From Gloeocapsa sp. DLM2.Bin57 (GTDB lineage: Bacteria; Cyanobacteriota; Cyanobacteriia; Cyanobacteriales; Gloeocapsaceae): a stretch of DNA of 57,761 nucleotides. The position numbers and the translations under genes are program-made. Where the stretch lies: the NCBI GenBank assembly GCA_007693955.1, contig RECR01000061.1, forward strand, positions 1 to 57,761, read 5' to 3'. The notes under the pieces are model-generated. The model made no database searches. It was not told the DNA's origin and worked only from the letters and a program-made list of their open reading frames with translations. Shown one piece after another: positions 4,282 through 37,389 of this stretch; within the stretch, counting starts at the first letter, position 1; the number at the start of each line of letters is the position of its first letter.

Positions 4282-4607
4282 CTTGTAGTAGATAGAGAAG
4301 CTAACGGGTCAGGGATAGTTTCCGAGGGAGCGTCAAACTCACCCGTTATCACAAATTCTAACCGCAATTTAAGCCAAGTAATAAAGGTAGAATTAGTCGA
4401 GACGATCGCTGCTGACTCTCGGGGGACTTTAGCTTTAATTTCGGCGAATTCGGGAGCTTCTAGAAAAGCAGGTTGAGTCACTACCCAAAAGTCTATCTCT
4501 TTATTTTGTTCTTGGTAATTACGGATACGCTCCTGTAATACCTCATCTAAGGGCTCTTCTTCTAGTAAAAACTTTTGGCTCGCTAAAACGTAATAATATG
4601 TCGTCAT
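4278..4607 (-). CDS. ycf54: Ycf54, Mg-protoporphyrin IX monomethylester cyclase assembly factor
   Basis: Ycf54 (DUF2488) is needed for the oxidative ring-E cyclase step of chlorophyll synthesis. It binds the AcsF/CycI subunit and stabilises it. The typical start 'MTTYYYVLASQKFLLEEEP' and the blocks 'EIDFWVVTQPAFLEAPE' and 'TWLKLRLEFV' are unmistakable; length is 109 aa. I place the start at the ATG read from 4607, which has AAGGA about 7 bases upstream. An earlier in-frame start would only add residues not found in the family and overlap pdxJ. It follows pdxJ by 7 bases, so the two are likely one operon. A 13-residue tail rich in Ser/Pro/Thr is less conserved. Confidence 0.93.
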   Translation of the reverse strand: MTTYYYVLASQKFLLEEEPLDEVLQERIRNYQEQNKEIDFWVVTQPAFLEAPEFAEIKAKVPRESAAIVSTNSTFITWLKLRLEFVITGEFDAPSETIPDPLASLSTTS

Positions 4608-4614
4608 AATTTCC

Positions 4615-5337
4615 TTATAATTGTCCTTTGATAGCAAGTTTCATGTCTCGTACAGCTCGCTCTATACCAACGAAAACCGCACGACTAATGATGGTATGAC
4701 CGATATTAAGCTCTTCAACACCCCTTAAACAAGCAACGGGATAAACATTATTATAGGTCAAACCATGTCCTACATTAATCCGCAATCCTTGAGCGATCGC
4801 CTGTTCACAACCTAAGCGCAACACTTCTAACTCTTGTTGACGAGTTATTTCTGATTGAGCTTCAGCGTATTTACCCGTATGTAATTCGATAAATTGAGCC
4901 TGAGTTTTAGCTGCTGTCTCAATTTGGGCTGTATCTGCATCAATAAACCAACTAACAGGTATTCCCCCGCTTTGTAACTTATCGACAATCTCAGTAAAAC
5001 GCTCAAAATTGCTCAACAGGTCGATTCCACCTTCAGTAGTAATCTCCTCTCGCTTTTCGGGTACTAGAGTAACATAATCTGGTTTAATAGACAAAGCGAT
5101 GCTCACCATTTCTGGAGTTGGGGCCATTTCCAAATTTAAATGAGTACGTACCGTTTCTCTTAGAATACGAACATCGCGATCTTGAATATGACGGCGATCC
5201 TCCCGTAAATGTACCGTAATGCCATCAGCTCCCCCAAGTTCTGCTAACACAGCAGCAGTAACGGGATCTGGCTCTACGGTACGTCGGGCTTGTCTAATAG
5301 TAGCGATATGGTCTATATTGACACCTAAACTAGGCAT
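4615..5337 (-). CDS. pdxJ: Pyridoxine 5'-phosphate synthase
   Basis: PdxJ condenses 3-amino-2-oxopropyl phosphate with deoxyxylulose 5-phosphate to form pyridoxine 5'-phosphate in the DXP-dependent vitamin B6 route. It forms a TIM barrel. The N-terminal '[16 protein letters not shown]', the '[16 protein letters not shown]' segment and the C-terminal '[11 protein letters not shown]' with '[11 protein letters not shown]' are all present. The start is the ATG at 5337, which gives the usual [11 protein letters not shown]-terminus (240 aa); an in-frame GTG at 5355 would add six residues. It is likely the first gene of a two-gene unit with ycf54. About 100 bases of repeat-rich DNA separate it from the DUF721 gene upstream. 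Confidence 0.95.
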
Positions 5338-5378
5338 ATTTTCTTGGCTAATCACGCTAAACAGATTATTTTAGCACA

Positions 5379-5447
5379 TTAGGTTTTAGGTTTTAGGTGC
5401 TATTATTCCTATATATCATGCTCCCCTACACCCGACACCCTACTCCC
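5379..5447 (-). repeat. G-rich intergenic repeat with G-quadruplex pattern, copy 1
   Basis: On the minus strand there are four runs of three or four G with 4-base spacers (complement of 5423-5447), then 'ATGATATATAGGAATAATA' (complement of 5403-5421), then a short tandem 'CCTAAAA' (around 5379-5395). The same order, with 'ATGATATATAGGGATAATA', occurs on the plus strand at 54909-54995. The G runs overlap the last codons and stop of the DUF721 gene, so the repeat seems to have landed on that gene's 3' end. Such dispersed intergenic repeats are common in cyanobacteria; function is unknown. Confidence 0.55.
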
Positions 5448-5892
5448 TACTTTTACTCCACTCACGAGCGATACAAAAAGCACAAACAGACCAACGCTCT
5501 AACTCAGCAACAGGAGTATGACAATGGCAGCGAGGACAGATAGTTAGTTGGTGTTCAATCTTGGTTGACTCAACCTCCTGCTTAACTACAGTCTGTTTTT
5601 TCACCCAATTAACCGTATTAAAGCGCAAATCCTTGACAGTATCGGGGAGAAGAATATTTAACTTTTGCAGAATCTGATAACGTTGAAAAGTCAAAGTTTG
5701 CGCCCAAACAGAATTAGCGGTAGCCACCCAGAGAACCCGACGAGTTAGAGAGACAGGGCGACTATGTTGCGCTACCAAGGGGTCAACAATTTGACCCCAA
5801 GACTCCACCAAACGACGATAAAGTCGAATAGATTCCCATTCTGGTTGTGCTTCTAGACTTTGAATAATCTGTGGTAGAGGTTTAAAAGACAT
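5440..5892 (-). CDS. DUF721 (DciA-like) protein with C-terminal zinc ribbon
   Basis: This 150-aa protein has an N-terminal DUF721 domain (about residues 1-95; 'RRVLWVATANSVWAQTLTFQRYQILQKLN'). In other bacteria the DUF721 protein DciA helps load the replicative helicase DnaB. Residues about 119-142 add a zinc ribbon with two cysteine pairs, 'CPRCHCHTP' and 'CAFC'. That tail is usual for the cyanobacterial form. The helicase-loading role here is inferred from the family. Its ATG follows the stop of the upstream PfkB kinase gene with no gap (TAA then ATG at 5893/5892), so the two are translationally coupled. Its last codons lie in the G-rich repeat. Confidence 0.75.
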   Translation of the reverse strand: MSFKPLPQIIQSLEAQPEWESIRLYRRLVESWGQIVDPLVAQHSRPVSLTRRVLWVATANSVWAQTLTFQRYQILQKLNILLPDTVKDLRFNTVNWVKKQTVVKQEVESTKIEHQLTICPRCHCHTPVAELERWSVCAFCIAREWSKSRE

Positions 5893-6870
5893 TTACTTCA
5901 GGAGATTTTTAAGTTCAGCTGTAGCAGATCTCGCGCCAAATTGACTAACTACTAATCCAGCTGCTTGAGAAGCTAAATTACCCGCATCAGGATAACTAAA
6001 ACCATGGGTAATTCCATAGAGAAAAGCTCCGGCGTACATATCTCCGGCACCTACAGTATCTACAGCTTTTACTTTGATTGCTTTTATTTCGTGAAGTTTT
6101 TCCCCATCAAAAATTAACGAACCCTCAGCACCTTGGGTAATGGCAAAACCTTTAGTTAGAGTTTTTAAATGAGCGATCGCTTGATTAAGATCCTCAGTTT
6201 TAGCCATTTTCAGTGCTTCTGTTTCATTAGCAAAGATAAAATCTAATCCAGGTCCGATCATTTCTAACAAACCATCAGCAAAAAATTCCGTCATATTAGC
6301 ATCAGAAAGAGATAAAGAAGTTTTCACCCCCTTACTTTGAGCTAATTCTCTGGCTTTAATCGCGGCTGCTTTCCCTGTAGGTGAAGTTACTAGATACCCT
6401 TCGAGATATAAATATTCTGAATCAGATAAAGCCTCCGTAACCAATTCCTGTTCTGATAAACTACCACTAATCCCTAAAAAAGTCCCCATAGTGCGATCAG
6501 CATCAGGAGTCACCAAAACTATACACTTACCCGTAATTCCAGGAGTGCCATTATGAACATTGGTATCTACACCACAAGCGATTAAATCTTGTAAATAAAA
6601 ATTGCCCGTCTCATCATTAGCCACTTTACAGGAATAAAAACCAGTTCCCCCTAATTGACTAATTGCTACCATGGTATTAGCTGCTGAGCCACCGCAACTT
6701 TTTTTACAAGCATAGTCTTGTAATGTTTGCACAATTTCTGCTTGATGGGCTTCATCCATCAGAGTCATAACCCCTTTGTCAATCTTTAGTTTCTGCAGCA
6801 TGGCGGTATCTACCTCAAACTCCATATCCACTAGAGCATTACCGATACCATATACGTTATATTTTGCCAT
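5893..6870 (-). CDS. PfkB-family sugar/nucleoside kinase (adenosine kinase-like)
   Basis: This is a ribokinase-fold kinase (325 aa). 'GIGNALVDM' at the N-terminus, '[20 protein letters not shown]' (PfkB signature 1) and the catalytic '[16 protein letters not shown]' (signature 2, with the base Asp in GAGD) are all present. The N-terminus and the AxNT block resemble adenosine kinases, so phosphorylation of adenosine or a related ribonucleoside is likely. Substrate cannot be settled within PfkB from sequence alone. It heads a minus-strand pair with the DUF721 gene. It is divergent from sigF, sharing about 180 bases of upstream DNA. Confidence 0.85.
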
Positions 6871-7052
6871 ATCTTTTTATCTAGGTACAATTGCGATTAT
6901 ATTATAGGTTTAAAAACTTCAGTAAAAACCAGTAAAATTCTTTTGTAAAGAAAGATGAGCAATGGTAAAAACGCTGTTGTTAAAGTTGATCTTGAAATCT
7001 TATGCTAATCGTTAGGATCAATTCTGGTAGCAGAAACAAGAGGAACTCGTCC

Positions 7053-7835
7053 ATGTCCACTTCTACGACTCAAAAAGTCAATAACAATTTAAAACTAGAA
7101 TGTTTGCGTCTATTCCAAGATTACCGCGCTTCGGGTGATCTAGAGTTACGTAACAAAATTATGCACCTTAATTTTGGGTTAGTTAAAAAAGAAGTATATA
7201 ACTGGATTAACCAATATCACGAAAGTTATGAAGATTTGTTACAGGTAGGTTGTCTAGGATTACTCAGAGCGATCGAAAAATTTGATCTAGAAAAAGGTTA
7301 CGCCTTTAGCTCATTTGCTATACCCTATATCAGAGGAGAAATTCAACACTACCTCCGAGATAAAAACCATTCTGTTAAAATTCCTCGTCGTTGGTTAGAA
7401 TTAGGACAACAAGCAGCTACCGCCACTAAAAATTTTCAAAAACAATATAATCGTATTCCCTTAGACTCTGAAATCGCCCAAATTCTCGAAATCTCCCAAC
7501 AAGAATGGCGCGAAATTAAACTAGCTCATCAAAATAGAGATCCCATCAGTCTAGACGCTACTGTCAATGATAACGAAGACAACTCAACTACTCTAGTTGA
7601 TTTAGTTCCTGATGCTGAGTATCGCAGTTTCCAACTAGCACAAGAAGATAAAATCCGTCTGCAAAGCGCTTTAAATGATCTCGAAGAAAAAACCCGTAAT
7701 GTCTTAGAATTCGTCTTTTTATACGATTTAACCCAAAAAGAAACCGCAGAGCGTCTAGGAATAAGCGTTATCACTGTTTCTCGTCATATGAAGAAGGGTT
7801 TAAACTCTCTGAAAAATTTAATGGGTCAAGAGTAG
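7053..7835 (+). CDS. sigF: Group 3 RNA polymerase sigma factor, SigF type
   Basis: This is an alternative sigma-70 family factor (260 aa). Region 2 is 'DLLQVGCLGLLRAIEKFDLEKGYAFSSFA', region 3 starts near 'PRRWLELGQQAATA', and region 4 has the helix-turn-helix 'TQKETAERLGISVITVSRHMKKGL'. Overall layout matches cyanobacterial SigF, which controls pilus/motility genes in Synechocystis; that regulon is from family knowledge. I start at the ATG at 7053, which has GAGGA about 8 bases upstream. An in-frame ATG at 7002 would add 17 residues of low similarity. No anti-sigma factor gene is adjacent. Confidence 0.85.
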   Translation: MSTSTTQKVNNNLKLECLRLFQDYRASGDLELRNKIMHLNFGLVKKEVYNWINQYHESYEDLLQVGCLGLLRAIEKFDLEKGYAFSSFAIPYIRGEIQHYLRDKNHSVKIPRRWLELGQQAATATKNFQKQYNRIPLDSEIAQILEISQQEWREIKLAHQNRDPISLDATVNDNEDNSTTLVDLVPDAEYRSFQLAQEDKIRLQSALNDLEEKTRNVLEFVFLYDLTQKETAERLGISVITVSRHMKKGLNSLKNLMGQE

Positions 7836-26970: not shown

Positions 26971-27537
26971 ATGACAGAAACTCAAGTAAATAATTTCTGG
27001 ACAAATGAAGATTTAGAATTGTTTCCCAATACCGAAGGTATAAACTATGAAATTATTGCGGGAGAATTGCTAGTGAGTCGAAGTCCCCATCGTTTTCATC
27101 AGCAAATAATCGTAAAAATTGCCACTCAATTAGAACTAGGGTCACGAAAAAGTGGTTGAGGAGAAACAATTATTAGTCCAGGAATTATTTTTAGTGATAC
27201 TGATAGTGTGATTCCTGATCTAATCTGGGTTAGTAAGGAAAGATTAGCAGTAATAGAGGACGAACAAGGTCATTTAACCGCCGCACCAGAATTAGTAATT
27301 GAAGTACTTTCTCCTGGAAAAGAAAACGAAAGACGCGATCGCCGACTTAAACTGAAATTATATTCAGTACAGGGTGTACAAGAATATTGGTTAGTAGATC
27401 GCTTTGGGAAGCAAGTAGAGGTTTATCGTCGTCAACAAGGTAAATTAATCTTAGCTGGGACTTTCTTTACCCCTGATGAACTTACTTCTCCTTTACTACC
27501 GAAATTCATTAGTCAAGTCCAAGATTTTTTCCCCTAA
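26971..27537 (+). pseudogene. Uma2-family (DUF820) endonuclease-like gene, broken by a nonsense codon
   Basis: The 188-codon frame carries the full Uma2 pattern: 'NYEIIAGELLVSRSPHRFHQQI', 'SPGIIFSDTDSVIPDLIW', 'APELVIEVLSPGKENERRDRRLKLKLYS' and 'VQEYWLVDRFGKQVEVYRR', i.e. the PD-(D/E)xK-like core. It is interrupted by an in-frame TGA at 27157-27159, between 'GSRKSG' and 'GETIISPG'. Homologues usually have a Leu or similar residue there, so one base change would explain it. The ATG at 26971 has AAGGA about 11 bases upstream. The downstream half remains open, so the break looks recent. Cyanobacterial genomes hold dozens of these genes, often decayed. Confidence 0.88.
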
Positions 27538-28611: not shown

Positions 28612-28751
28612 TTAGTTCACTAAGCCCTTTTTAATTATACTTCTTGCATTAAGTCAGAAAACTTTTTATAGGGAATAGGGAACAGTGTTAGAAACTAATT
28701 GTTTTTCTAGCTTAACTGATTTTATTTTTACTTTTGCAAGAGATTATTATT

Positions 28752-30695
28752 ATGCTTAAATCAACTTTTGCTATAGAATATCACGAAAAGTTACAAGCTT
28801 TAACCTGTTGTGATGAACATCTGGACTTTATTGAAAAAATTGTCAGTAGTAACTTAGTTGTTCAAGCAGATAAATTAACCATTCTGAACCAAGTTAAGAA
28901 AATTAAGAATCGGAGTCTAGATCCTAACTTTTATTTAGCTGTAGTGGGAGAATTTTCTAGTGGTAAAAGTAGTTTTATCAATGCTTTGCTAAGAGATGAA
29001 TTGTTAAAAACATCAGCTTTAGTAACCACTGCTGTAGCTACAGAAATAAGATTTGGAAAACATTTGGTACTTAAAACTATTTTAAATTTAAATGGCAAGG
29101 AATGGAAATTAAAAACATTTGAAAATTCAAAACTCATTACTATTACTGCTTTAAATATACAAAAAATAACAATAAGAGAATTAATTCATCTCTTGACTAG
29201 CGATAATCATCTCACAGCAAAAATCAATAATCTAACAATTAGCCATCCTGCTAACTTTCTGAAAGAAGGAACTGTTATTATTGACACTCCAGGAACTAAT
29301 GCTATCAATGTAGAACACGGAACTATTACAAAACAAACGATCGCCGATATAGCAGATGCAGCAGTAATTATCATTCCCGCAACCACCCCTTTATCTCAAA
29401 GTCTAGCTAACTTCTTAGATACTTCTCTACGTCCTTTCTTACATAGATGTATTTTTGTAGTCACTAAAATGGATAATATTAGGAAAAGAGAAAGGGAAAG
29501 TTTAGTCGAGGATTTAAAAAATCGTCTCACTACCATGTTAGGTCTTGACAATCCCGATCTTTTGCCAATATCTTCTCAAGTTGTTTTAGATCAACTTACC
29601 CTAGATGAAGAAAGCGAAATTTCATCAGAAGAACAAATTTGGTTAAATCGTTTTCAGGATTTAGAAAACTTTTTAAGCCAAAAACTGCGTTCAGAAAGAA
29701 TAATTATTATTGCTGAAAATTTGCTGCGACTATTAACTAATATTCTAGAACAACTTGAAATCAACTTAACTCAAGAATGGCAAACCTATGAAGATCGTCA
29801 ATTAGCCTTAAAAAATAATATTATTCAAGACTTAGGCTATTTTACTTCAGAACATAAAAATAAATATCGTTCTGAAATAGAGCAAGCTATCCAACAAACT
29901 CAAAATCAACTCAATTCTAAAATACTGGAATATCAAGAACAAAAAAAACAACAAATTAAACGTGAAATTTTGACTATTACTGATTGGGATGAATTAAAAG
30001 TTTTTACAGAAAATGGTGCAGAATCAATACTTGGAGGAGGACAACCACTCTTACAAAGAATAATCGAAACGCAAATTAATGATTTAAACAATAAACACCA
30101 AAAAGCACAAGAAAACTTTTTACAAGAATTTTCTCAAGAATACAAAAAACTCGAAGCATTAGGAAATACTTTAAATGTATCTAATCATATCACTAGTCAA
30201 GCTTTAGCTCAAGATACAGGTCAGATTTTTTCAGAAATGAAAGAACTTCATACCCAGCAAGAAAATGAAGCCGCAGGTAGAGTCATGACAGGTATTGCTG
30301 TAGGTATAATAGGCTCTATTTTAATACCTGGGGTAGGGGCACTTTTAGGAGGAATAATTGGTGCTTCAGTTTCTCGGTGGCTAGGACCATCTTTAGAAGA
30401 AAGAAAAAATGATTTATGGTTTAAATTAGAGCCAAGTTTAAATAGTTATTTTCAAGATTTAAAAAAACAAATCCAAAATGAAATTACTACTCATGGTTAC
30501 CAATTAATAAATTCTTTAGAGGAACATATTGATTTATATATGAATAAATATAAGAGTGTAGTTGACATAATGCTATTGGAACAACAAGAAGAGTTAAATC
30601 GGTTAAACGAATTGCAAATCAATACCGAAACATATTTAAAAGAAATTGCCAGACGGAAAAAGCAAATAGAACAACAAAAAACTAGATTAATTTAA
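28752..30695 (+). CDS. Dynamin-like GTPase 1 of the dynamin operon
   Basis: This 647-aa protein is a bacterial dynamin-like GTPase. G1 is 'GEFSSGKSS' (about 66-74), the G2 Thr lies in 'TTAVATEI', G3 is 'DTPGTNA' and G4 'TKMD'. Long helices follow (about 290-500), then a hydrophobic hairpin 'GIAVGIIGSILIPGVGALLGGIIGA' near 512-537, in the place of the membrane paddle, and a final helix rich in Glu/Gln/Lys. It should bind GTP, oligomerise and act on membranes. The ATG at 28752 has AAGAGA about 10 bases upstream; an in-frame TTG at 28734 is less likely. The peptidase gene follows after 22 bases with a strong ribosome-binding site. Confidence 0.88.
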   Translation: MLKSTFAIEYHEKLQALTCCDEHLDFIEKIVSSNLVVQADKLTILNQVKKIKNRSLDPNFYLAVVGEFSSGKSSFINALLRDELLKTSALVTTAVATEIRFGKHLVLKTILNLNGKEWKLKTFENSKLITITALNIQKITIRELIHLLTSDNHLTAKINNLTISHPANFLKEGTVIIDTPGTNAINVEHGTITKQTIADIADAAVIIIPATTPLSQSLANFLDTSLRPFLHRCIFVVTKMDNIRKRERESLVEDLKNRLTTMLGLDNPDLLPISSQVVLDQLTLDEESEISSEEQIWLNRFQDLENFLSQKLRSERIIIIAENLLRLLTNILEQLEINLTQEWQTYEDRQLALKNNIIQDLGYFTSEHKNKYRSEIEQAIQQTQNQLNSKILEYQEQKKQQIKREILTITDWDELKVFTENGAESILGGGQPLLQRIIETQINDLNNKHQKAQENFLQEFSQEYKKLEALGNTLNVSNHITSQALAQDTGQIFSEMKELHTQQENEAAGRVMTGIAVGIIGSILIPGVGALLGGIIGASVSRWLGPSLEERKNDLWFKLEPSLNSYFQDLKKQIQNEITTHGYQLINSLEEHIDLYMNKYKSVVDIMLLEQQEELNRLNELQINTETYLKEIARRKKQIEQQKTRLI

Positions 30696-30717
30696 AGAAT
30701 GCAAGGAGAAACAGCTA

Positions 30718-31494
30718 ATGTTTTTAGATAATATTTTTAATTTAATCGATGATTGGCTGATCCAGGAAGAAAACTTGAATTTAGATGAACTAGAATCAAT
30801 ACCTATAGATTACCCTGAACAATATTATCTTAGCGAAGAAATACAATATTTAAGCTTAGATTTAGAATTAGGACAAAGCTTTTTAGATTCTCCAGATTAC
30901 TTTATCTATGAAGAAAGTTGGGATATAGCTGAATTTAATGGTGTTGGTAATCCTTGGGAAGATGCTCAATTTTGGCAATATCAAGAAGGTTCAAATTCTT
31001 GTGCAATAGTTGCCCAAATGGGAGTATTTCAATCCCTAACAGGATTAGATGTATTAGAAAGTGAGCTTTGTCAAATAGCTGAAGCTAATGGTTGGTTTGA
31101 CCCTCATTCTGGTACTACGCTAGAATCCATGGATAACATACTCAATAGTTTCGGTTTATCCACCGAATCCTATTACAATGCGAACCTTAATGATATCGCT
31201 GAAGCCTTAGCCAACGGTGACAAAGTAATTGTAGCTCTAGACGCTCAGGAAATTTGGCAACCTCTGCGAGATAATAATGATAATCCTCTAGAACAATTAG
31301 ACGCAGGTCATGCAGTTTGGGTAACAGGAATAGACCAACTTCCCGATGGTAGTATTAAAATCATTATTAATGATAGTGGTACTTCTGACGGTCAAATGAA
31401 AGTTGTTGATGCTGTGGACTTTATTAATGCTTGGGATGACTTTGGTAATTATGTAGTTATTACTCATAACTCACCTAGTTTAGTAACAGTTTAA
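30718..31494 (+). CDS. C39/papain-like cysteine peptidase fold protein, cytoplasmic
   Basis: In this 258-aa protein residues 1-75 are very acidic and probably form helices. From about 85 it shows a papain-like C39 layout: Gln90 (oxyanion), Cys95 in 'GSNSCAIVAQMGVFQSLTG', His198 in 'AGHAVWVTGID' and Asn218/Asp219 in 'IINDSG'. All catalytic positions are present. There is no signal peptide or membrane segment, unlike most stand-alone C39 proteins, and no ABC transporter, so it is not a bacteriocin exporter. AAGGAGA precedes the ATG. It lies between two dynamin genes, 22 bases after one and 25 before the next, so it should act with them, perhaps cleaving one. Enzyme activity is inferred. Confidence 0.75.
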   Translation: MFLDNIFNLIDDWLIQEENLNLDELESIPIDYPEQYYLSEEIQYLSLDLELGQSFLDSPDYFIYEESWDIAEFNGVGNPWEDAQFWQYQEGSNSCAIVAQMGVFQSLTGLDVLESELCQIAEANGWFDPHSGTTLESMDNILNSFGLSTESYYNANLNDIAEALANGDKVIVALDAQEIWQPLRDNNDNPLEQLDAGHAVWVTGIDQLPDGSIKIIINDSGTSDGQMKVVDAVDFINAWDDFGNYVVITHNSPSLVTV

Positions 31495-31519
31495 ATCAAT
31501 AAATCAGGAAAGTTTAATC

Positions 31520-33901
31520 ATGAAAATAGATCCCGAATTGCTCAAAAAAATAACCACTCAATCTTTAGCCAATAAATCAATAGGTGTTAAAGGATTACTT
31601 AACAGTATTCACCAAGATCCTAAGTTGAGAAATTGGGTAACCATGGAATCCATTCCTTTAGTACCTATTCCTTTTAAAAAACATAATAATTGGCATATTT
31701 TAACATTATTAGTGACTCGCCAGACTCTCGAAGACGGTACTCAAATATTTAATTCACCTTGGGGAATGATTGAATGGGTTGTCCCCCAAGGTATAGTTGT
31801 CCAAATACAAGATTTACGCTGGAATGACAGTATTATTGAATTGCAAGCCAATCAACCCAAAACTATTAATATTGAACCTGCTGAGCCTAATTTAACCCTA
31901 AATAATGAAACTAAACTGCACAGAGAAAATACACTTTTTGAATTATTAGACTCCTTCTTTTTAGAGCCTTTTCCTTTAGATAATCTAGCGCCTCACTACC
32001 TAGGATTATTACCCAGAGAGATTTATGATTATTACTGGTTGTTAATTCCTGAAAGCAAAACATGGTTAACTCCCCATTTTTCAACCGAGGATGAAACCGA
32101 AACTACCAATCAAGAAACAGAAATAATTACTGATACTCAACCAGAGAAAAATGCCGTTAATCAAGAATCAACTTTACCCCTACCTTTAGATTTAAGTATC
32201 TATTTACAGGAATGGATTGAAGAATTACAGCAGATAGTTGATACCGGGAAAATCCCAGGATTGTTAAATGAATTAGATGATTATGAATTTCGACTATTAC
32301 AACCTGGTTTTAGATTAGCAGTTGTAGGTGAATTTAGTCGAGGCAAAAGTAACTTAATCAATTCTTTATTAGGAGAAGATGTTGTACCTGTTGGTAATTT
32401 GCCAACCACATCTTGTTTAATCTCCATATGTTCAGATCAAGAAAATAAAATTGATTTTTATTTGCCTAATCAAACAGTCAAAACTAAAACATTGAGCGAA
32501 GAATCTTGGTCAGAATTATTAACAACAGATATTACCGAAGATAATCTCGCTAAAATTAGGGTGAAAATTAACAATCCTTGGTTAGAAAAACTTGATGTTG
32601 AACTAATCGATACTCCTGGAGCTAATGATTTAAATACTCAAAGAGCAGCTATTATTTTTGACTTGCTCAATCAGTGTGACGCAGTAATATTAGTAATTAG
32701 TGCCACAATGCCACTAAGTTTAACAGAAGTTAATTTTTTGGAAGAAGAAATAATCGGTCGTCATGTTCCTCGTATTTTGGTAGTAATTTCTAAACTAGAT
32801 CTAATTGAAAGCCAAGAAAGAGAGTCAGTATTCAACCATATCACTAACCGTTTAGCCCAAATCTCCGCCAATATTCCTGTTTTACCATTACATCCTCTTG
32901 AGTCAAATCAATCAGCAACAGATACCATAGGTAATATCAAGAACTATTTAAAACAAATGGTTGATCAAGGTGAACGAAAAGTATGGCGTAGTCGTCAAAT
33001 TGCTTCACAGTTGTTAGATTATTGCACTCAATTAAAAAGTTTAGGAGAAGCAGTAATTGCTCAGGATTCATTAGAAGAAGATAACCGCCAAAAAGAAATC
33101 AATGAAATTAAAAAATCAATTCAAGAAGCGGAAATATATTGGCAACAATTAGAAATAGATTTAGAACAAAAAAGAATGACAAATTATCGATACTTCGAAC
33201 AAAAAATCTTAGAATTTAAGCATAATTTATTAGATATACTTAAATTCCAACTCAAGAAAACATCTAATCCTAAACTGTGGTGGGAAGAAGATTTACAATT
33301 TATTTTACGCAAAGAACTAGTTAATTTTTCTCGCAACCTAGAAAATACCCTTGTTCAAAAAATAGCCGAAGATAATACCTGGTTAGAAACTAAAGTAACT
33401 GAGTATTTTGCCACAGAAATGGCTACAGTCCTTCCCGTCAGTAATTATAATTGTGATATGCTGCTCAATAACCTAGAAGAATTATCTTTAACAGACTTAA
33501 AAAAATATCGTCTTTTAACTCGTTTAGGTAGTAGCGCTGCCATTATTGGAGGCTATATTTTAGGAGGTCCAATTGGGGTTATTGCTAGTACAGGAATCTG
33601 GTTATATGGGGAAGATCTAATGAATAGAACAGGAGAAGACCAAAAAGAAATAATAGAGCAAGAGTTAGAGTCTAAAATAACTTTATCTTTTACTCAGTAT
33701 TGTCAAAAAATATCCCAAAGATTAACCGATGTTTATCGACAAATTATTCAAGAAACTTGGGTAACAAAAAAACAATGGCAACAACGTAAACAAGCTTTGG
33801 TTGAGAAAACCAATTCTCCCCAAGACATAGAAAAATGGACAAGAATCGTTAAACAAATTAATGATGTCCAAGCCAATATTATTAACGCTCTAAACCAATA
33901 A
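31520..33901 (+). CDS. Dynamin-like GTPase 2 with a novel N-terminal domain
   Basis: This 793-aa protein begins with a ~185-residue domain that I do not recognise ('LRNWVTMESIPLVPIPFKKH', 'WHILTLLVTRQTLEDGTQIF', 'LGLLPREIYDYYWLLIP'). A Glu/Thr/Asn linker (about 187-220) joins it to a dynamin-like GTPase: G1 'GEFSRGKSN' at 270-278, G2 Thr in 'PTTSCLI', G3 'DTPGAND', G4 'SKLD'. Coiled-coil helices follow, then a hydrophobic hairpin 'GSSAAIIGGYILGGPIGVIASTGIWL' near 672-697. It is about 140 aa longer than its neighbours because of the N-terminal domain. CAGGAAAG stands about 9 bases before the ATG. The third dynamin gene starts 21 bases after its stop. Confidence 0.87.
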   Translation: MKIDPELLKKITTQSLANKSIGVKGLLNSIHQDPKLRNWVTMESIPLVPIPFKKHNNWHILTLLVTRQTLEDGTQIFNSPWGMIEWVVPQGIVVQIQDLRWNDSIIELQANQPKTINIEPAEPNLTLNNETKLHRENTLFELLDSFFLEPFPLDNLAPHYLGLLPREIYDYYWLLIPESKTWLTPHFSTEDETETTNQETEIITDTQPEKNAVNQESTLPLPLDLSIYLQEWIEELQQIVDTGKIPGLLNELDDYEFRLLQPGFRLAVVGEFSRGKSNLINSLLGEDVVPVGNLPTTSCLISICSDQENKIDFYLPNQTVKTKTLSEESWSELLTTDITEDNLAKIRVKINNPWLEKLDVELIDTPGANDLNTQRAAIIFDLLNQCDAVILVISATMPLSLTEVNFLEEEIIGRHVPRILVVISKLDLIESQERESVFNHITNRLAQISANIPVLPLHPLESNQSATDTIGNIKNYLKQMVDQGERKVWRSRQIASQLLDYCTQLKSLGEAVIAQDSLEEDNRQKEINEIKKSIQEAEIYWQQLEIDLEQKRMTNYRYFEQKILEFKHNLLDILKFQLKKTSNPKLWWEEDLQFILRKELVNFSRNLENTLVQKIAEDNTWLETKVTEYFATEMATVLPVSNYNCDMLLNNLEELSLTDLKKYRLLTRLGSSAAIIGGYILGGPIGVIASTGIWLYGEDLMNRTGEDQKEIIEQELESKITLSFTQYCQKISQRLTDVYRQIIQETWVTKKQWQQRKQALVEKTNSPQDIEKWTRIVKQINDVQANIINALNQ

Positions 33902-33922
33902 CTAATTAATCAGGAGTTGATC

Positions 33923-35914
33923 ATGACAGATACTAATGGATACAGCAGTTTTCTTCACAACCGCAAAATTCTCGAAAAACTAATTGTTCAACAACTCAGT
34001 TTCCTTGAAGTTTTAGAAATGAAAGGCTGGATTGAAACCCTCAATAATCTTCAAGAAAGAGTCAGATCTGATAACTTTAAAGTGTTGGTAGTTGGTGAGT
34101 TTAAAAGAGGTAAAAGTACTTTTATCAATGCTCTTTTAGGTCAAGAAATCTTACCTTCTTACGCTAAACCATGTACAGCAATTATTAATGAAATAAAATG
34201 GGGAAATGTTCCCCGTGCTGTGTTGCACTTTAATTCTGATGAAAATGGTTATGTTAAACCAGCTCAAGAAATTCCTATTGACCAAGTGGAAAACTATGTA
34301 GTTATCAAAGATGGTTTTGATCAAAGAGAAGCTATTAATACCACTCCTTATGAAAAAGTGGAAATTTTTTGGCAACTAGATTTATGTCAAAATGGTGTAG
34401 AAATTATTGATTCTCCTGGATTGAATGAAAACGAAATTCGTCAGAAAGTCACGATGGACTACTTGTCAACGGTTGATGCGATTTTATTTGTGTTAACCTG
34501 TGAAGCTTTAGCAGCTCAATCAGAAATAGACGTTATCAATAATACTTTGAGAAAAGCAGGTCATGAAGATATCTTTTTTGTCTGTAATCGCTTTGATTCA
34601 ATTCGCAAGAAAGAACAAGCAGACTTGAAAGAATATGGTATTTCTCGCTTAGCCCCATTAACAAAAAAAGGTGAAAGAAGAGTCTTTTTTATTAGCGCTT
34701 TAAAAGCTTTAGAAGCTCGGTTAGATGAAGATGAAGAAGAGTTAGAAAAATCAGGAATTATTCCCCTAGAAAATGACTTACAAGAATTTTTAATAAATGA
34801 ACGAGGGAAAGTTAAATTATTACGTCCTGCCATGGAGTTAAGACGTTCTCTTCAAGAAGCACGCCGAATCTTACCAGAGCGACGCAATCTGCTGAGAACT
34901 GATATTAAAACCCTTGAACAACGTTTTGCTGAAGCTCAAAAACCTCTAGAACAATTAGAGCTACAACGTAAACAAATTGTTAGTCGCATTAATAATTTTC
35001 TTGAAGATATGCGCTTAGCTGTGAGAGGACAAGCACAAGAATTTTATGTACAATTAGCTGATGTTAAGATTAATGAATGGATAGCAAATTATGAAGTTAA
35101 AGAGCCAATAGAATTTTTTAAATTTGAACTCTTAACTAAGCAAATTGAACGAGTAGCTACAGAGATTACTGAATATTTTGCCCAGCAAATTGAACAAGAA
35201 TTGGGTGATTGGCAAAGTAAAAACTTAGAGCCAATGATTAAACAAAGGCTAGAAAGTCTTATGTTGGAACTCGATACAAAAACTGAAAAATTTATCGAAA
35301 ACGTCGATAATTTACGATTAACAATCGCTCCTGGTAGTTTTAATATCTCTAATGTAGCTGATTCAGAAAGAAAAGTCTCAGCAATAGAAAGAATTTTAGC
35401 TACAGCTGGTGGTTTTGTGATAGGTGGTTTTGGTAGCGCAGCGGTTGGAGCGGTATTTGGATACCAAGAAATGTTAAAAAGTATCATACCTCAAATAGCT
35501 TTAGCATTTGGAGCACTTTTATTAGGTTTGACTAGTCCTTGGGTTTTAGTTCCCTTATTAATGGGGGGTGGTTTAGTACAGGGATTGTTTAAAATGCAAT
35601 CCACCAACAATAAGGTAAAAGAAGCAGTTGCTAAAGAATATATTAAGCAATTACGTAACGCTAATTATGAACAATCTTCTCAAATTGCTGATTCTATAGT
35701 TGACAAATTACGGGAATTTCAAACAAATATAGATAAGGGTTTAGAAAAGGAAATTCAAAGTATTCGCGACCAGGTTAATTCTGTCTTGATTGAAAAGCAA
35801 AAAGGAGAAGCTAATGTAGCTCAAAAAATCACAGAATTAGAAGAAATTGAGGAGCAGTTAAATCAAATTGATAGTAAGTTAGACGAATTTATTACTAAAG
35901 TTACTTTAGGTTAG
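33923..35914 (+). CDS. Dynamin-like GTPase 3 of the dynamin operon
   Basis: This 663-aa protein has G1 'GEFKRGKST' at 58-66, G2 Thr in 'PCTAIINEI', G3 'DSPGLNE' and G4 'NRFD'. Unlike the other two it has a longer double hydrophobic segment (about 490-555, 'TAGGFVIGGFGSAAVGAVFG' and 'IALAFGALLLGLTSPWVLVPLL'), so it may span or insert into the membrane more stably. The rest is long coiled coil, with a final Glu/Gln/Lys helix. The ATG at 33923 has AGGAG 7 bases upstream and was preferred to an in-frame TTG at 33917. The three GTPases differ strongly outside the G motifs, so they are not a recent triplication; hetero-oligomers are likely. A hairpin follows the stop. Confidence 0.88.
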   Translation: MTDTNGYSSFLHNRKILEKLIVQQLSFLEVLEMKGWIETLNNLQERVRSDNFKVLVVGEFKRGKSTFINALLGQEILPSYAKPCTAIINEIKWGNVPRAVLHFNSDENGYVKPAQEIPIDQVENYVVIKDGFDQREAINTTPYEKVEIFWQLDLCQNGVEIIDSPGLNENEIRQKVTMDYLSTVDAILFVLTCEALAAQSEIDVINNTLRKAGHEDIFFVCNRFDSIRKKEQADLKEYGISRLAPLTKKGERRVFFISALKALEARLDEDEEELEKSGIIPLENDLQEFLINERGKVKLLRPAMELRRSLQEARRILPERRNLLRTDIKTLEQRFAEAQKPLEQLELQRKQIVSRINNFLEDMRLAVRGQAQEFYVQLADVKINEWIANYEVKEPIEFFKFELLTKQIERVATEITEYFAQQIEQELGDWQSKNLEPMIKQRLESLMLELDTKTEKFIENVDNLRLTIAPGSFNISNVADSERKVSAIERILATAGGFVIGGFGSAAVGAVFGYQEMLKSIIPQIALAFGALLLGLTSPWVLVPLLMGGGLVQGLFKMQSTNNKVKEAVAKEYIKQLRNANYEQSSQIADSIVDKLREFQTNIDKGLEKEIQSIRDQVNSVLIEKQKGEANVAQKITELEEIEEQLNQIDSKLDEFITKVTLG

Positions 35915-35939: not shown

Positions 35940-35960
35940 CCCCAACCTGAAAAGTTGGGG
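35940..35960. terminator. Hairpin between the dynamin operon and gnd, probable two-way terminator
   Basis: CCCCAAC (35940-35946) and GTTGGGG (35954-35960) make a perfect 7-bp GC-rich stem with a 7-base A-rich loop. It is centred between two convergent genes whose stops are 25 bases before and 11 after. There is no long T run on either side. Confidence 0.55.
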
Positions 35961-35970
35961 GTATAAACTC

Positions 35971-37389
35971 TTATGTCCACTGAGTGTGGAAAAACTCACC
36001 TCTGGGTTTGTCAATACGCTCATAAGTATGTGCGCCAAAATAATCCCGTTGAGCCTGGGTAAGATTTTGAGGAAGGCGATCGCGTCTGTAGCTATCAAAG
36101 TAATCTAGAGAAGCACTAAAAGCGGGTACAGCGATACCAGATTGATTAGAAACCACTAAAACGTCTCGCCAAGCTTGTTGTCGATCGAGAATAGACTGTT
36201 TAAACTCAGGAGCTAACAATAAGTTAGGTAACTCAGGGTTATCACTAAAAGCTGATTTAATCTTATCTAAAAATCCTGCTCTAATGATACAACCTCCCTT
36301 CCAGATACGGGCGATTTCCCCTAGATTAAGGTTATAGTTATATTCTTGAGAAGCTTTACTCAATAGAGCCATACCTTGAGCGTAAGAGCACATTTTTGAG
36401 CAGTAGAGAGCATCTCTAACCTTAGCGATGAACTCTTGTTTATCTCCTGAATAAGCTTTAACTACAGGTCCTGTTAACTCTTTAGCTGCTGCTAATCTTT
36501 CCTCTTTATATCCAGATATAACCCGAGCGTTAACCGCAGCGTACATAGTAGGAATGGGGACACCTAATTCTAGAGAACTAACTACAGTCCAACGTCCTGT
36601 ACCTTTTTGTCCTGCTGAGTCTAAGATAAAGTCTATTAACTCTTTACCTGTGTCGGGTTCGACGTATTTAAAGATATCGGCGCTAATCTCGATTAAAAAG
36701 GAGTTTAACTCGTCAGTTTCGTTCCATTGAGTAAATACTTCTCCTAACTCTTGATTAGTCAATCCTAGAACATTTTTCAGGATATCGTAAGCTTCAGCGA
36801 TTAACTGCATATCGCCGTATTCAATGCCATTGTGTACCATTTTTACATAATGACCCGCCCCTCCAGGTCCGATAAAGGTCACACAAGGACCGTCATCTAC
36901 TTGAGCAGCGATTTTAGTTAAAATTGGCTCTAATTCTTGATAAGCAGCTTCTGTACCTCCAGGCATCAAGGAAGGACCATTTAACGCCCCTTCTTCACCG
37001 CCACTGACTCCCATACCGACAAAACCTAATCCGGAGGCTTCTAATTCTTGGGTACGTCTTTCTGTGTCTTCATAGAGAGAGTTACCACCATCGATAATCA
37101 TATCTCCTTCTTCAAGAAGAGGTTTAAGTTGTTGAATTACTCCATCTACAGGACCTCCTGCTTTTACCATTACCAGGATTTGACGGGGACGTTCTAAACT
37201 GTTAACAAATTCTTCTAAAGAATAAGCAGCTTTAATGTCTTTCCCTTGTCCTCTTTCGCTCATAAAGGTTTCTGTTTTAGCAGAAGTTCGATTATAGACG
37301 GCGATGGGAAACCCTCGACTTTCTACGTTGAGGGCTAGGTTTTCTCCCATTACGGCTAAGCCAATCACGCCAAAGCTTCTTTTTACCAT
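35971..37389 (-). CDS. gnd: 6-phosphogluconate dehydrogenase (decarboxylating)
   Basis: Gnd oxidises 6-phosphogluconate to ribulose 5-phosphate with NADP+ in the oxidative pentose phosphate pathway, the main route of dark sugar breakdown in cyanobacteria. The 472-aa sequence has '[12 protein letters not shown]' (Rossmann start), '[14 protein letters not shown]', the substrate site '[19 protein letters not shown]', catalytic '[20 protein letters not shown]' and 'QKGTGRWTV'. The C-terminus '[19 protein letters not shown]' is complete. Length and motifs are standard. It appears monocistronic, separated by nearly 200 bases from tamB. Confidence 0.97.

Follow-up and report, generated by a model that had tools for sequence, protein, structure and literature searches.

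Why does a gene for a cysteine peptidase lie among three genes for dynamin-like GTPases, and do the four belong together? This question is raised by a stretch of 57,761 nucleotides from the cyanobacterium Gloeocapsa sp. DLM2.Bin57 (contig RECR01000061.1; the whole stretch is called the window here), in which positions 28752-35914 encode, all on the forward strand, a dynamin (D1), a C39-like papain-fold peptidase (PEP), a second dynamin (D2) and a third (D3). To our knowledge, what most bacterial dynamins do in vivo is not known, and tandem pairs are the only multi-dynamin arrangement recognised so far. A first-pass annotation of the window, made from the sequence alone, had described the four genes as one operon and possibly one machine, and had called a triple dynamin set with a papain-fold protein unfamiliar. 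We find that the four genes, which encode three distinct dynamins and a peptidase, do form an operon-like unit, and that its constant core is narrower than the annotation supposed.

The Peptidase and D2 Genes Recur Together in Three Phyla

D2 was searched for in 120 genomes of the same order, PEP and D2 in 386 cyanobacterial genomes, and a PEP alignment was run against 84,980 species genomes, after which the neighbourhoods were read. Rare adjacency of the genes had been set beforehand as the mark of an accidental grouping. The largest scan gave 13 PEP loci, 9 of which have D2 downstream of PEP, either directly or after one other gene, and all searches together yielded, after removal of duplicates, 12 distinct intact loci with adjacent PEP and D2, in Cyanobacteriota, Acidobacteriota and Bacillota. 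These are the window, genomes G067 and G271, Oscillatoria PCC 10802, Oscillatoria Prado101, Anabaena CRKS33, Nostoc linckia z4, Okeania SIO2B3, Sphaerospermopsis aphanizomenoides, Trichodesmium MAG_R03, and metagenome-assembled genomes (MAGs) of an Acidobacteria and a Paenibacillaceae member. The four-gene set is complete in 7 of the 12, in the order D1-PEP-D2-D3 in six (the window, both Oscillatoria, Anabaena CRKS33, G271 and the Acidobacteria MAG) and PEP-D2-D3-D1 in the Paenibacillaceae locus. At the other five loci, another pair of adjacent dynamin genes comes after PEP-D2; this pair replaces D1 and D3 and resembles Nostoc BDLP (best structural match 2j68), so that every intact locus has three dynamins beside PEP. 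Since these five loci pair PEP-D2 with other dynamins, PEP-D2 is the constant core and the other dynamin pair is exchangeable. Accordingly, of the proposed four-gene machine, the operon-like unit conserved across phyla stands, but its core is PEP and D2, and the other two dynamins are swappable.

Flanking genes are mostly unshared between loci, so the grouping does not stem from long-range synteny; in complete contexts the neighbours are mostly housekeeping genes (topA, urease genes, gnd). A congener of the window genome (G001) carries a degenerate copy, with a stop codon within PEP and a truncated D2, and 298 further genomes of Bacillota yielded no relatives of PEP. The possibility of a viral or plasmid-borne cassette was rejected, as no relatives were found in phage records or viral contigs and plasmid matches were only distant. 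Two of the loci with a complete core have a gene for the circadian oscillating protein COP23 (PF14218) between PEP and D2 (Okeania L052, 10684-11202; Trichodesmium L059, 10683-11201), and class 3 lipase genes lie directly 3' of the alternative pair in Nostoc linckia (L051, 14322-15365) and Sphaerospermopsis (L053, 18382-19356).

In a dynamin tree built by quick search, with Shimodaira-Hasegawa-like approximate likelihood ratio test (SH-aLRT) supports only, D1, D2 and D3 fell into separate clades of 7, 14 and 8 rows (SH-aLRT 100, 99 and 100, respectively), each with Acidobacteria and Paenibacillaceae members; the deep joins of this tree, with its long branches and uneven composition, should not be over-read. 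Identities run parallel across loci for the three proteins. The D2s that accompany the alternative pair form a nested group (SH-aLRT 97), which suggests that a single partner change within cyanobacteria may have produced this second edition of the operon. The D3 clade is separate from that of the alternative tandem pair in this tree, which did not contain NosDLP itself, though NosDLP is the best match of D3.

An N-terminal Domain of D2 Accompanies the Peptidase

D2 is a dynamin-like GTPase of 793 aa (31520..33901, + strand), in which an N-terminal extension precedes the G domain. The extension comprises a domain that we call D2N (residues ~1-188; 31520..32083, +), modelled as three helices, six strands and then helices, and a linker (residues 188-219; 32081..32176, +) that is variable and unconserved in the D2 alignment, is predicted to be disordered (predicted local distance difference test score, pLDDT, <50) and is a candidate cleavage or hinge region. 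In every PEP locus, D2 has about 190 residues ahead of the disordered linker and the G domain. R37, P49, W86 and R100 are among the conserved residues of D2N. When two cyanobacterial rows were scanned, D2N had no Pfam match up to E 0.5. The identification of D2N with DUF1822, a domain fused before a dynamin in L052, was ruled out (hhalign probability 0.3%); that dynamin, of 931 aa, is encoded at 4545-7340 on the strand opposite the Okeania operon.

Four independent observations link D2N to PEP. D2N occurs in 4 of the 386 cyanobacterial genomes, and PEP is encoded immediately upstream in all four. It is conserved in the D2s of the Acidobacteria and Paenibacillaceae loci. The sole D2 that lacks it (L022) belongs to a genome without detectable PEP. 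Finally, the Anabaena plasmid pANA01 encodes a stand-alone D2N of 187 residues directly 3' of a C39 peptidase and 5' of two dynamins. A leave-one-out hidden Markov model matched this protein (E 1.6e-11) and had no reversed decoy among its listed matches, and blastp matched it at E 3.8e-6; hhalign gave 100%, but with the same row contained in the query alignment. When a domain forms part of a larger protein in one lineage and is encoded by its own adjacent gene in another, a functional partnership is classically suspected. Since D2N is fused in D2, yet is a separate neighbouring gene in pANA01, it is expected to have a functional partner, and that partner would be PEP.

PEP Has a Predicted Papain-Like Fold and an Invariant Catalytic Set

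The first-pass annotation had identified the 258 aa product of the second gene (30718..31494, +) as a C39-like papain-fold cysteine peptidase, and fold comparison and residue conservation agree. PEP scores 23.4 bits against Peptidase_C39_2 (PF13529), slightly below the curated cut-off of 24. Residues 1-64 are acidic and mostly disordered, and the peptidase domain spans residues ~68-252. The AlphaFold model shows a papain-like fold, with pLDDT of at least 90 for most of residues 70-250, and Foldseek matched it to the C39-like structure 3erv (E 3e-7). In VIA-align, the closest structure was the phytochelatin-synthase-like Alr0975 (Z 18.9), followed by 3erv (Z 17.1) and the ComA/PCAT peptidase domains (Z 15-17). 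Four residues are invariant in 15/15 rows of the PEP alignment: Q89 (30982-30984), C95 (31000-31002), H198 (31309-31311) and D219 (31372-31374, next to N218), all on the + strand. By analogy with C39 and papain peptidases, they would form the catalytic set, and the protein thus appears to hold the Gln, Cys, His and Asp residues of such enzymes within a predicted papain-like fold. Because this fold is accompanied by invariance of all four residues, PEP is likely to be an active enzyme. No evident signal peptide was seen in PEP.

The Three Dynamins Differ outside Their G Domains

Dynamin_N (Pfam) was found in D1, D2 and D3 at E 5e-27, 2e-26 and 1.5e-27, spanning residues 266-425 in D2, and the G1, G3 and G4 motifs reported in the first reading are present in all three (in D1, GEFSSGKS, DTPG and TKMD). 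The three proteins of the window are very different elsewhere, as had also been stated, with pairwise identities of 24-33% that come nearly all from the G domain. D1 (28752..30695, +; 647 aa, with an alternative TTG start at 28734) has 5owv as its best match among solved structures (E 8e-14). D3 (33923..35914, +; 663 aa) belongs to the Nostoc BDLP type of bacterial dynamin-like proteins; its closest solved structure is 2j68 (NosDLP; E 7e-42 across residues 37-646), and its stalk matches the bacterial dynamin helical domain PF21808 (E 1e-21). The D2 model resembles, over residues 217-793, mitofusins (Z up to 24.5) and BDLP (Z 18.6). By their G domains, D1, D2 and D3 are thus classed as bacterial dynamin-like proteins, with a long helical stalk predicted for D3 and D2.

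A late hydrophobic hairpin had been claimed for each of the three GTPases. The claim stands for D1 (residues ~507-541; best 19-residue mean 2.18) and D3 (residues ~517-549; 2.06), both of which have strong hairpins, but less clearly for D2, whose paddle hydrophobicity is weak (1.58). Most PEP-linked cyanobacterial D2s are likewise weak in the paddle (1.4-1.75 on the 19-residue scale), and the D2 from the PEP-less L022 reaches 2.18 on this scale.

Operon Layout and Sequence Signals

The four genes are separated by 22, 25 and 21 bases (D1/PEP, PEP/D2 and D2/D3), as the coordinates confirm, and the ribosome-binding sites proposed before genes 2 to 4 were located as Shine-Dalgarno-like sequences on the + strand: AAGGAG 5' of PEP (30703..30708), AGGA 5' of D2 (31506..31509) and AGGAG 5' of D3 (33912..33916). 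The corresponding signal 5' of D1 is weak. Between D3 and a convergent 6-phosphogluconate dehydrogenase gene (35971-37389, -) lies an inverted repeat, CCCCAAC-CTGAAAA-GTTGGGG (35940..35960), which might possibly mark the end of the transcription unit; a terminator scan gave no call there, and promoter and terminator scans gave nothing above chance. A short open reading frame at 27208-27537, its 5' end probably truncated, resembles Uma2-type endonucleases (PADLOC PDC-S03 match).

Comparison with Known Dynamin Systems

No description of a peptidase-dynamin operon was found in the literature searched, subscription papers being outside its scope, and the triple set with a papain-fold protein therefore appears to be as unfamiliar as the first-pass annotation held. 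Cyanobacterial dynamins have been sorted into KGK, HSR1, chaperone and tandem clades, in a text that describes no peptidase context (Jilly et al., 2018; PMC5827413). Among the nearest relatives are BDLP1/BDLP2 of Nostoc punctiforme (Tandem B/A): D3 is similar to BDLP1 (2j68) over its full length, and both systems have side-by-side cyanobacterial dynamin genes, whereas the operon described here has three dynamins and a peptidase, with D1, D2 and D3 in clades of their own. Campylobacter jejuni Cj-DLP1/2 (5owv, the best match of D1) and mycobacterial IniA/IniC are also heterotypic or tandem dynamins, but each comprises two dynamins, without a C39 peptidase or D2N. Escherichia coli LeoABC is likewise a multi-gene dynamin operon, in which the second dynamin is split into LeoB and LeoC (PMC4159319), and the PADLOC profiles for LeoA and LeoBC match D1 and D3; unlike the operon in the window, it has no peptidase. 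Membership of D3 in the LeoA/HP0731 family (NCBIfam NF041922) was rejected (19.7 bits against a cut-off of 325). Bacillus subtilis DynA, which has been linked to phage tolerance and to protection of the membrane during phage infection (PMC8844932), is a single fused double dynamin, whereas the window proteins are single dynamins; they score 34.6-43.3 bits against the DynA equivalog (NCBIfam NF052648; cut-off 1600), and this assignment was rejected as well. No PADLOC system model fits the set: PEP has no match, and the dynamins show only general LeoA/LeoBC similarity. None of the four operon proteins matches the DO-GTPases of predicted conflict systems (Kaur et al., 2020), which were found only beside the distant relative on pANA01.

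That plasmid and plasmids of Rhodococcus encode, as here, a C39 peptidase near two dynamin-like genes, to which pANA01 adds the separate D2N gene. These units differ in that their peptidases are only 27-39% identical to PEP, Hsp70 is present, DO-GTPases occur in pANA01, and there is no fused D2. The pANA01 peptidase scores 26.1 bits against PF13529 (cut-off 24). On pANA01 of Anabaena sp. 90 (L061, 2571-13921), a co-directional run encodes Hsp70, a hypothetical protein, DO-GTPase1, a DO-GTPase2-like protein, a hypothetical protein, the C39 peptidase, the stand-alone D2N and two dynamins; CHAT-domain and helix-turn-helix genes lie upstream, and the run links dynamins with predicted conflict-system parts. 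The Rhodococcus plasmids (L062, L064) carry, all within ~10 kb, genes for a dynamin, in places a small protein, a GTPase and Hsp70, and for a C39-like peptidase, after which a small acidic protein and a sigma factor are encoded, an arrangement that is apparently undescribed. The neighbourhoods on pANA01 and the Rhodococcus plasmids suggest that peptidase-dynamin units form a wider family, as yet undescribed. Two other runs of dynamin genes were noted. In genome G408, an M48 metallopeptidase gene lies within a row of four dynamin-like genes, near what appears to be a caspase-like gene (L046, 7135-16131). On Lysinibacillus capsici plasmid pFN9B, which has a florfenicol efflux gene, three genes of the dynamin family follow one another with no peptidase gene (L065, 2014-8680).

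Discussion

The conserved unit, its intact catalytic and GTP-binding motifs, the linkage of PEP to D2N and the exchangeable pair can be accommodated in a model in which D2, itself a dynamin, would act as an adaptor and recruit an active peptidase to a heterotypic pair of dynamins, with PEP cutting a component of the assembly. We give this model, which is tentative, a probability of about 45%. The four genes would be one module that has spread horizontally. Heterotypic pairing is established, and usual, among other bacterial dynamins (PMC6104087; PMC4159319), and D1 and D3 (or the alternative pair) may therefore be read as the working pair, forming a GTP-using assembly on the membrane that would reshape or tether it. 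D2, with its weak paddle, would serve as a regulatory subunit, its dynamin body co-assembling with the pair while D2N holds PEP. Assembly driven by GTP would then position or switch PEP at the membrane, and cleavage of an assembly component, either the D2 linker or a partner dynamin, would limit or reset remodelling. The likeliest occasion would be envelope damage, including phage attack; between envelope-stress repair and phage defence the data favour neither, and DynA is a precedent for both (PMC8844932).

Several points weigh against this model. Physical contact between PEP and D2N, cleavage, its target and its trigger are all what we infer, and the D2 alignment shows no conserved cleavage motif in the linker. 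Four close relatives of PEP occur without dynamins (L054, L055, L058, L060), and genome G004 has relatives of D1 and D3, on separate contigs, without PEP or D2. PEP and the D1/D3 pair thus each also occur outside the operon; the partners that are inseparable in the sample are D2N and PEP. Several comparison loci come from MAGs; the Acidobacteria contig holds the operon alone, so that its host assignment rests on binning, and the Paenibacillaceae contig is 277 kb long. The D3-type dynamin of genome G004 is fused behind a Ser/Thr protein kinase domain (L079, 926-3874; 982 aa; Pkinase E 6e-36).

A possible but doubtful alternative is that PEP acts as the effector, with the dynamins as its sensor: once D1, D2 and D3 assemble on a membrane that is damaged or invaded, PEP would be concentrated and activated through D2N, leading to cleavage of cellular or phage proteins and to growth arrest or death. 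The tie between PEP and D2N fits this as well, the acidic disordered tail predicted at the N-terminus of PEP could serve as a switch, and the distribution is patchy and crosses phyla; moreover, the distant pANA01 relative has genes for Hsp70, two DO-GTPases and a CHAT protein beside it, all typical components of predicted conflict systems. However, no relatives were found in phage or viral contigs, the operon's neighbours are mostly housekeeping genes, and PADLOC offers only the general LeoA/LeoBC likeness. Equally doubtful is the related notion of a GTPase-gated protease machine, in which a three-dynamin coat would sense the damaged or invaded membrane and control papain-fold PEP through D2N. 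If true, this would be the first case in bacteria of a dynamin system coupled to proteolysis, and a functional counterpart, not one by descent, of guanylate-binding-protein and caspase platforms.

It is rather unlikely that PEP cuts no dynamin and is some other papain-fold enzyme (an amidase, a transpeptidase, or a peptide deconjugase as in phytochelatin synthase) or a mere binding partner of D2N. The top rank of Alr0975 among the structural matches, beside the C39 peptidases, points that way, but 3erv and the ComA/PCAT domains match nearly as well, and invariance of the full catalytic set argues for catalysis. Less probable still is an ordinary operon for vesiculation or membrane repair, similar to LeoABC or BDLP, in which PEP would process an envelope substrate and have no direct link to the dynamins. 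The likeness of D1 and D3 to the LeoA/LeoBC profiles and the lipase genes downstream in some relatives are in keeping with it, but PEP has no evident signal peptide and tracks D2N specifically, whether fused or as separate genes. That the genes are accidental neighbours is scarcely credible, for although C39-like peptidases and dynamins also occur elsewhere in these genomes, there are 12 loci with unrelated flanks in three phyla, and the PEP-anchored survey together with the unshared flanking genes of most loci rules out a chance grouping.

Whichever component PEP may cut under the adaptor model, a conserved set of three dynamins, together with an adaptor domain and a peptidase dedicated to it, offers a concrete and testable way into the regulation of dynamin assemblies in bacteria. 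D2N is a domain outside Pfam whose presence follows the peptidase, and the operon points to proteolysis as a form of dynamin control that is not described in the literature searched.

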